Shown: positions 6,160-61,794 of the stretch, piece by piece
Layout: every line of letters begins with the position of its first letter
How positions within the stretch are numbered: position 1 is the first letter of the stretch
Source of the DNA: Pseudohalioglobus sediminis
Lineage (GTDB): Bacteria; Pseudomonadota; Gammaproteobacteria; Pseudomonadales; Halieaceae
Assembly (NCBI RefSeq): GCF_008370495.1
Contig: NZ_VTUX01000010.1
Coordinates: 186,001-250,000 of the forward strand
DNA length: 64,000 nucleotides
Direction: 5' to 3'
Position numbers and translations under genes: made by a program
Notes under the pieces: generated by a model
What the model saw: only the letters and a program-made list of their open reading frames with translations
What the model was told of the DNA's origin: nothing
Database searches by the model: none

Positions 6160-6177
6160 GCGCGAGCACTCACCGGT

Positions 6178-6195
6178 TAGTGTCAACAGGCCCTA
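6178..6195. repeat. Solitary MITE/IS terminal repeat copy
   Basis: GTTAGTGTCAACAGGCCC matches the right terminal repeat of the element at 61201-61465 at 17 of 18 positions (C in place of G at one site) and is followed by TA, as there. I find no partner end or related internal sequence to its left, so it is either a decayed element remnant or chance. Confidence 0.5.
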
Positions 6196-60715: not shown

Positions 60716-61201
60716 ATGAAGGGCGACCCTAAAGTTATCGAGCACCTGAATATCGTATTGGGCAACGAACTGGTCGCCATCAACCAGTATTTCCTGCATG
60801 CCCGTATGTACAAGGACTGGGGCCTGCGCGAGCTTGGCGAGCACGAATATCACGAATCCATCGATGAAATGAAGCACGCGGACACGCTGATTGAGCGTAT
60901 CCTTTTCCTGGAGGGCTTACCCAACCTGCAGGACCTGGGCAAATTGCTGATCGGCGAGAACACGCGTGAAATGCTCGAATGCGACCTGAAACTGGAGCAC
61001 AAGGCCCATGCGGACCTGAGAGAGGCAATTGAGTACTGCGAAAAGGCAGGTGACTATGTCTCGCGGGACATTTTCAAGGAGATTATGGCCGCGGAAGAAG
61101 AGCACATAGACTGGCTGGAAACACAGCTCGGACTGATAGAAAAAGTGGGTCTGCAGAACTACCTGCAGACCGCTATGCATACCGTCAAGCCGGAGGACTA
61201 G
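60716..61201 (+). CDS. bfr: Bacterioferritin
   Basis: A 161-residue subunit of the 24-mer iron store. The ferroxidase ligands are seen in [30 protein letters not shown] and EEEHIDWLE, and the haem-ligand methionine is M52. The protein ends KPED, and its TAG stop takes its last base from the MITE-like element that begins at 61201. AAGGAG precedes the ATG. It is paired with bfd. Confidence 0.96.
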
Positions 61202-61465
61202 GGCCTGTTCACACTAACTGAGTTGGCCCTGTTGTGACAGAAAAAGCGCCAGTCGAGGCGTGAGGAGAGAAGTTTGGTTGCTCCAAATGAACGACGAATA
61301 ACGAAGAATGGCGCTTTTTCTGCCACAACCCATAGGGCTGCCGCTGGTTTCGCAACCTGCGGCGTTAGAAATTGCTTATGTGGCGCCACCACACCGCGCA
61401 ATTCCTGCCTTGCAGGCCACGAAACCAGTGGCAGCAGGGCTAACTCAGTTAGTGTGAACAGGCCC
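61201..61465. mobile_element. 265-bp MITE-like element between bfr and grxD
   Basis: The element begins GGGCCTGTTCACACTAACTG and ends with its reverse complement; the outer repeat is perfect for 24 bases, then 6 of the next 7 match. It is flanked by TA on both sides (61199-61200 and 61466-61467), consistent with a duplicated TA target. Inside are two further inverted repeats: 61231-61250 against 61310-61329 (19 of 20) and 61337-61352 against 61420-61435 (15 of 16). It has no transposase; short open frames across it read out of the repeats. TA duplication fits IS630/mariner or the IS427 group of IS5, so it is probably a non-autonomous derivative. Confidence 0.85.
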
Positions 61466-61794
61466 TAATCCGCCGCATTGCTGGCGGCCGCCTCCTTGAT
61501 AAGGGTCTGCAACTCTCCGGATTCAAACATCTCGGTCACGATATCGCAGCCGCCAATCAATTCACCATCCACCCAGAGCTGCGGGAACGTGGGCCAGTTC
61601 GCATACTTGGGCAGGTTCGCCCGGATCTCGGGGTTGGAAAGTATGTCCACGTAGGCAAAGCGCTCCCCGCACTGCATCAGTGCCTGCACCGTGCGAGCAG
61701 AAAAGCCACACTGCGGTTGGTTGGGAGACCCCTTCATATAAAGAAGGATAGTGTTGTTCTCAATCTGTTCTTTGATGGTGTTAATAATATCCAT
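61465..61794 (-). CDS. grxD: Monothiol glutaredoxin
   Basis: A 109-residue Grx4-type glutaredoxin that carries and transfers [2Fe-2S] clusters. The CGFS active site is in PNQPQCGFSARTVQAL, with the glutathione-binding WPTFPQLWVDGELIGGCDIV. It is convergent with bfr across the MITE, and the last base of its TAG stop lies inside the element. Confidence 0.96.
   Translation of the reverse strand: MDIINTIKEQIENNTILLYMKGSPNQPQCGFSARTVQALMQCGERFAYVDILSNPEIRANLPKYANWPTFPQLWVDGELIGGCDIVTEMFESGELQTLIKEAAASNAAD

Follow-up and report, generated by a model that had tools for sequence, protein, structure and literature searches.

What separates bfr from grxD in Pseudohalioglobus sediminis, and how do two convergent genes come to end in TAG exactly at the edges of the DNA that lies between them? 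In the window, the 64,000-nucleotide stretch analyzed here, bfr (60716-61201, plus strand) and grxD (61465-61794, minus strand) flank a 265-bp element at 61201-61465. The names, bacterioferritin and monothiol glutaredoxin, were assigned in an earlier reading of the letters of this DNA (the sequence-only reading); bfr is taken from the list of open reading frames and adjoins grxD in relatives. The element is bounded by perfect 24-bp terminal inverted repeats (left, 61201-61224, plus strand; right, 61442-61465, minus strand), of which the left resembles the ends of IS5-family elements. Its first 24 bases are the reverse complement of its last 24, and base 25 is mismatched. A TA dinucleotide stands on either side (61199-61200 and 61466-61467), so that the left junction reads ...GGAGGAC-TA-GGGCCTGTTC... 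and the right junction ...GAACAGGCCC-TA-ATCCGCC. The stop codon of bfr consists of the left TA and the element's first G, and that of grxD of the right TA and the element's last base; both are TAG, and they lie 263 bases apart. Removing the element together with one TA yields GGACTAATCC, in which bfr ends GAC-TAA and grxD ends GAT-TAG on a common TA. The boundaries, the excision product with its overlapping stops, and the two TAG codons formed through the element tips had all been described in the sequence-only reading, and each is reproduced to the base from the sequence and the open reading frames. The longest open reading frames inside the element are 67 and 64 amino acids, and we regard it as short and non-coding.

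The same reading had called the element MITE-like. Its identity as a MITE is supported by related copies elsewhere, identical copies at two loci, empty sites in sister species and IS5-family partners. Chance does not account for the element: a 19-base end query (at most 3 mismatches) finds three matches in the window, the two ends of the element and one other place, versus none in 100 shuffles. The genome-wide end search that had been proposed finds, in the organism's own genome (G000; 4.43 Mb in 23 contigs), solitary ends (1 or 2 mismatches) at three other places and a fourth, weaker match (84% over 31 bases). A genome without another copy of the end, or relatives with the same spacing filled by unrelated sequence, had been named as grounds for doubting a mobile element; neither was seen, yet the window element is the sole full copy found in its own genome. 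Beyond this genome, the whole-element query gave matches in 14 of 140 family genomes, and a 16-base end with at most 1 mismatch is present in 24 of the 140; a 26-base end, up to 3 mismatches allowed, occurs in 12 of 390 sampled genomes of the order. Halomonas, Azotobacter and Pseudomonas plasmids contribute elements of 268-269 bp built on the same plan. For comparison we assembled 48 distinct full elements from families f1, f24, f41 and f46 and from two plasmids, starting from 52 end pairs, removing 4 judged spurious by hand and counting identical elements once (L226 with L225). Measured from TA to TA, 23 of the 48 are exactly 270 bp long; the range 269-270 bp takes in 30 of them, and 268-270 bp takes in 31. 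One genome (G201) holds two identical 270-bp copies at different loci, and the copy in a sister species (G283) differs by one base.

TA is present at both ends of 33 of the 48 full elements, and for 31 of these 33 the implied target is YTAR (CTAG in 11, CTAA in 9, TTAG in 8 and TTAA in 3). Only the TA, 2 bp, appears to be duplicated, because the bases next to it are often not the same on the left and the right. The target being TA and both tips starting with G, TAG therefore arises at both junctions. States like those before and after such an insertion are seen at another convergent gene pair, which we take from the sequences to be fur and recN. In G031 (GGGCTAGCC) and G028 (TCCTAACT), the stops of this pair overlap on one TA, and in G029 a 33-bp form, TA-[GGGCC...GGCCC]-TA, sits exactly there and both genes end in TAG. 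Five other members of the genus have different spacers in this alignment. An empty site of another kind is provided by a 320-bp full element in G031 (L034:1500-1819), which is absent from the same place in all six sister genomes viewed (G029, G028, G000, G025, G027 and G026; the contig of G030 ends before the site). Its left end is CA, as in five of the six empty relatives (G025 has TA), and it therefore gives no support for TA duplication. This element seemingly stands between two genes, parting the upstream stop from the downstream start, so that the downstream gene begins right at the element end. For bfr and grxD, 30 loci were fetched and 20 relatives had both genes measurable; their stops lie 7 to 1060 bp apart, no empty site was found among them, and none of the 19 intervals viewed (all but L183) holds the element. 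Insertion at overlapping stops, as first proposed, thus has the logic of the junctions and the parallel fur/recN-like states in its favor, whereas the exact empty bfr/grxD site was not found. A similar search at L221 reached relatives at 66-74% identity.

We next consider what could move such an element. A query with the 33-nt end matched six plasmid records, and five of them, all but the Thioclava record, were examined. In all five loci a second, inverted end lies 809-828 bp away, and in four an IS5 family transposase is annotated beside the end, the fifth being without annotation there. The left ends of these plasmid IS elements read TAGGGC[CG]TGTT[AC]AC[AG]CTA. A further IS of 812 bp, with ends TAGGGCCTGTTCACACTAATT...AATTAGTGTGAACAGGCCCTA, is found in one of the carrier genomes (G325, L319:1464-2275), and its 21-bp ends are identical to those of a MITE (L157) in the same genome. 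TA stands at both junctions in six of six IS elements (the five plasmid loci and G325), the open reading frame is split into two frames at an A8 run in all five that were translated (four plasmid and G325), and two ORF-A pieces match Pfam PF13340. The second open reading frame of the G325 IS is without a stop of its own; it continues into the end (...SVNRP), where TA and the flanking G form its stop. Among the 16 carrier genomes searched, G325 is the one with an ORF-A homologue (E<=1e-8), and none was found at this threshold in G000. The 50 end matches listed for G314 include no inverted pair 0.7-2.5 kb apart, and no autonomous copy was seen. An IS630 transposase is annotated beside one Azotobacter copy, with similar sequence beside another, and IS630 also uses TA; as mobilizer it was rejected, since the MITE ends match IS5 elements. 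The Paracoccus members of the IS427 group are 832-865 bp long with a 2-bp duplication in nearly all, and have two overlapping open reading frames with a frameshift motif, according to the accessible text of PMC3281130. Judged by the features given there (about 0.8 kb, two frames, TA duplication), the partner IS would be of the IS427 type.

The window element is thus very probably a MITE that was moved in trans by an IS427-type IS5-family transposase into YTAR, with stop codons preserved. Such a transposase would insert the MITE at the TA of YTAR and duplicate that TA, and with G at both tips each junction would read TA plus G, that is, TAG going inward. Where the YTAR is a stop (TAA or TAG), or a pair of overlapping convergent stops, it would remain a stop and the proteins would be unchanged. 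Copies inside genes would presumably be purged, and stops would make up about a third of the YTAR sites that remain, so that placement at stop codons would follow from target choice together with selection. Later, the giant hairpin may promote loss of the DNA from one short direct repeat (GGCCCT or AACT) to its partner; forms of 33 or 43 bp would be left, and their terminal TAG would persist where it is used as a stop.

To count stops, genes beside the element ends were called from codon usage in six frames. A gene reads into 17 of the 96 ends of full elements, and in 15 of these 17 it stops at the element's TAG (P 4e-6); two of the 15 in-frame ends (L154 and L166) look like one ancestral insertion common to G201 and G283. 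Of the other ends, 26 are next to gene starts, and 53 of the 96 are without a call. A stop-codon end is found in 14 of the 48 full elements, among which the window element alone is called with genes ending on both sides. These calls supersede a census by open length (frames 0/1/2, 23/7/6 for full elements and 37/9/6 for short forms), which was discarded because it counted antisense frames as genes; it miscalled L034, for example, where the left gene starts at the element. In the window itself there are 160 YTAR sites, of which our own script's gene calls place 75 inside genes, 58 in intergenic DNA and 27 at stop codons, two of these 27 being made by the window element. Once gene interiors are set aside, 85 YTAR sites remain, and 27 of them are stop codons.

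Many relatives are far shorter than the full elements. We collected 100 sites with an end and no full partner and dropped 6 element fragments, leaving 94: 35 labelled as 33 bp, 6 that are 43-bp near-palindromes, and 53 without a second end by the script's rule. Within these 94, one mutated 43-bp form (L121, in the group of 53) stands as two rows, some are probable chance matches inside genes (e.g., L058, L081 and L105; all without TAG), and the short forms from f24 and f41 are a partial sample. Genes reading into these sites are in frame at 27 of the 35 near ends and at 20 of the 21 far ends. The near-end TAG is intact in 23 of the 27 in-frame cases versus 1 of the 8 out of frame; at far ends the TAG is intact in 16 of the 20 in frame, and the single out-of-frame case is mutated. 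A TA second end is present in 14 of the 35 forms labelled as 33 bp, and GGCCCT lies exactly at its place in 24. Those without the TA mostly end in TG, as the interior of a full element would also give; the forms with TG could also be truncated ends, and a few of the 35 keep part of the interior. In the window element, GGCCCT occurs as a subterminal copy (61225-61230, plus strand) and a terminal copy (61461-61466, plus strand). The 33-bp form is exactly what deletion from one to the other would leave, and a join at AACT produces the 43-bp near-palindrome. All 35 forms labelled as 33 bp are in f1 and none of the 9 short forms of f24 and f41 is of this kind (P 0.024; for the 14 firm ones the contrast is without power). 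The subterminal GGCCCT is mostly present in f1 full elements and absent from the aligned f24 and f41 elements. We infer that the short forms arose by hairpin-assisted deletion and that an end serving as a stop was kept by selection.

Two other accounts of these gene-end positions have to be weighed. The transposase might actively target stop codons or convergent gene ends beyond its preference for YTAR, and at least one end is indeed a gene stop at 44 of the 94 short-form sites versus the 27 of 85 expected. This excess fits retention of a TAG in use, as seen in the contrast between in-frame and out-of-frame near ends, and special targeting is not required because the share of full elements with a stop-codon end, 14 of 48, is close to that of stop codons among non-interior YTAR sites, 27 of 85; active targeting is accordingly very unlikely. 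The short forms could also be mobile units in their own right, or simple one-end truncations, instead of deletion scars. Two genomes speak for this, G029 with 28 and G042 with nine end matches (at most 1 mismatch), in both of which the whole-element query gave only short matches, and so do the scarcity of TA second ends among the forms labelled as 33 bp, with TG mostly in its place, and the 53 sites without a second end by the script's rule. We nevertheless consider it rather unlikely, since repeat-to-repeat deletions give the exact 33-bp form and the 43-bp near-palindrome, and since the forms labelled as 33 bp are confined to f1, where subterminal GGCCCT is mostly present (with the same lack of power for the 14 firm ones).

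The window element folds end to end as a Y, with a basal stem formed by the terminal repeats and two arms of 99 nt: arm 1 (61231-61329, plus strand), a stem-loop whose 24-nt stem arms are separated by 51 nt, and arm 2 (61337-61435, minus strand), of the same size and homologous to arm 1 in inverted orientation. This fold lies 13 to 18 standard deviations below dinucleotide shuffles (z of -12.9 for DNA, and of -13.9 and -17.6 for the RNAs of the two strands). For alignment A1 we took, among the 48, the 31 elements of 260-273 bp that come from genomes, with the two plasmid elements left out (identity down to 62%). The consensus fold of A1 has 90 pairs, and 97.7% of cells pair versus 86.9% in shuffles; 48 pairs are changed on both sides versus 25.4 in shuffles, with the structure derived from A1 itself, and sliding the partner abolishes the signal. 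Arm 1 aligned with inverted arm 2 scores 21 versus -6.0 +/- 4.0 for shuffles, and the loop region common to both arms scores 18 versus -2.1 +/- 3.3. Elements whose ends have a different sequence, GGGCCTGTTGACGTTT, carry a similar loop core. Among the matches listed for that end sequence are records from Halomonas, Azotobacter and Aeromonas with the annotation IS5 family transposase. G-U cells outnumber A-C mismatch cells in A1 by 40 to 27 overall; the ratio is 22:2 in arm 1, 4:15 in arm 2 and 14:10 for the basal stem. The pattern, which comes from few independent changes, looks as though each arm were under constraint as a single strand read in its own direction.

Covariation within the arms is not explained by recognition of the terminal repeats; it could reflect selection on the fold or correction of an imperfect palindrome. 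Such correction by template switching between arms is a known mutational process, and in its favor pairing is nearly complete over the whole length, terminal repeats included. The length of 268-270 bp kept in 31 of the 48 elements and the conservation of loops common to both arms stand against correction as the whole explanation, which we regard as quite possible, if short of probable. A further reading, that the Y is a regulatory or terminator structure of the host, conserved between convergent genes and not mobile, could draw on the strong fold, the covariation and the position. It is extremely improbable, given that identical copies occupy different loci, that sister species have empty sites, that the element is absent from the viewed bfr/grxD intervals of relatives and that its ends are shared with IS5 elements. 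The suggestion in the sequence-only reading that the element acts as a two-sided terminator is not supported either: a scan for intrinsic terminators, which considered loops of 3-8 only, found none inside it. Arm 1 does have a stem with T5, but with 51 nt between the stem arms. An Rfam search of the element returned a chance-level match alone (14.6 bits versus a gathering threshold of 51). Inside the 3' end of bfr, at 61148-61171 (minus strand), there is a hairpin that resembles a terminator and has a T run (1 site versus 0.5 in shuffles); its orientation is that needed to stop transcription from grxD, and the element now lies between it and grxD.

Taken jointly, these results allow a broader reading that we hold only tentatively. 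The Y core may be a functional module, bound by protein as single-stranded DNA or RNA, which would drive mobility or else a silent stay at gene ends; it may travel under at least two IS5-type ends (GGGCCTGTTCACACTAAT and GGGCCTGTTGACGTTT), and its collapse into short remnants would steadily rewrite TAA stops as TAG in many genomes.

Several known systems share parts of this behavior. IS870, to go by the title of Fournier et al. from 1993 alone, reportedly uses a CTAG target that creates the stop of the element's own open reading frame; that title is silent on host stop codons. Nearly precise excision of Tn10, a deletion between short repeats near the inverted-repeat ends, leaves a short remnant. 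The short forms differ from such remnants in being found in natural genomes, often carrying the stop of a neighboring gene. According to the available portion of PMC4133298, ISPsp10 duplicated TA and the stop of its second open reading frame is supplied by the target TAA. The second open reading frame of the G325 IS likewise obtains its stop from TA plus a flanking base. In ISPsp10 and IS427, as these sources present them, the target stops an open reading frame of the IS; the MITE, unlike them, supplies host stops on both sides and does so without a transposase. MITEPsy1 of Pseudomonas syringae is likewise a small non-autonomous element, attributed to the IS5-family ISPsy2 and inserting at CTAG or YTAA in the accessible text of PMC3189936. 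It differs in its 100-bp size, 4-bp duplication, other terminal repeats and 1194-bp parent, and the description in that text includes neither a Y core nor an effect on host stop codons. RUP, Correia/NEMIS and CIR are small repeats with stable folded transcripts; RUP is attributed to an IS630 transposase and TA targets, and CIR, with two arms and a linker, is described as being without the end-to-end stem of the others (PMC2229807, as far as its available part extends). These are other elements, and RUP uses another transposase family.

The MITE kind, mobilization of the IS5 type, the CTAG/YTAA target and a stop supplied by the target are thus already published, as the accessible parts of PMC3189936, PMC4133298 and PMC3281130 attest. 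A literature search that covered few subscription papers, with ISfinder outside it, found no report of the element family; with the same coverage, neither the return of host stops at overlapping stop codons nor the short forms were found. A palindromic, stop-like target combined with G tips would let an element enter compact genomes at little cost, the element itself restoring host stops. The family also offers an explicit test of whether targeting or survival accounts for mobile DNA at gene ends. Further, the short forms may record insertion followed by near-precise loss and may be an overlooked source of stop-codon change and new gene spacing.

Related ends also turn up in other settings. 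IS5-type elements with like ends are located on clinical Pseudomonas and Enterobacter plasmids (L317:2501-3328 and L313:2501-3309), the one in L317 close to a gene annotated as tmexC. Pairs of ends are also present on two viral contigs, at spacings of 270 and 267 bp (L310:935-1204 and L312:365-631), so that the element family may travel with prophages. In the window, the end search places a solo family end with one mismatch at 6177-6195 (minus strand), directly before the start of a gene that is presumably polyprenyl synthase-like; this end is called as next to a start, not a stop.
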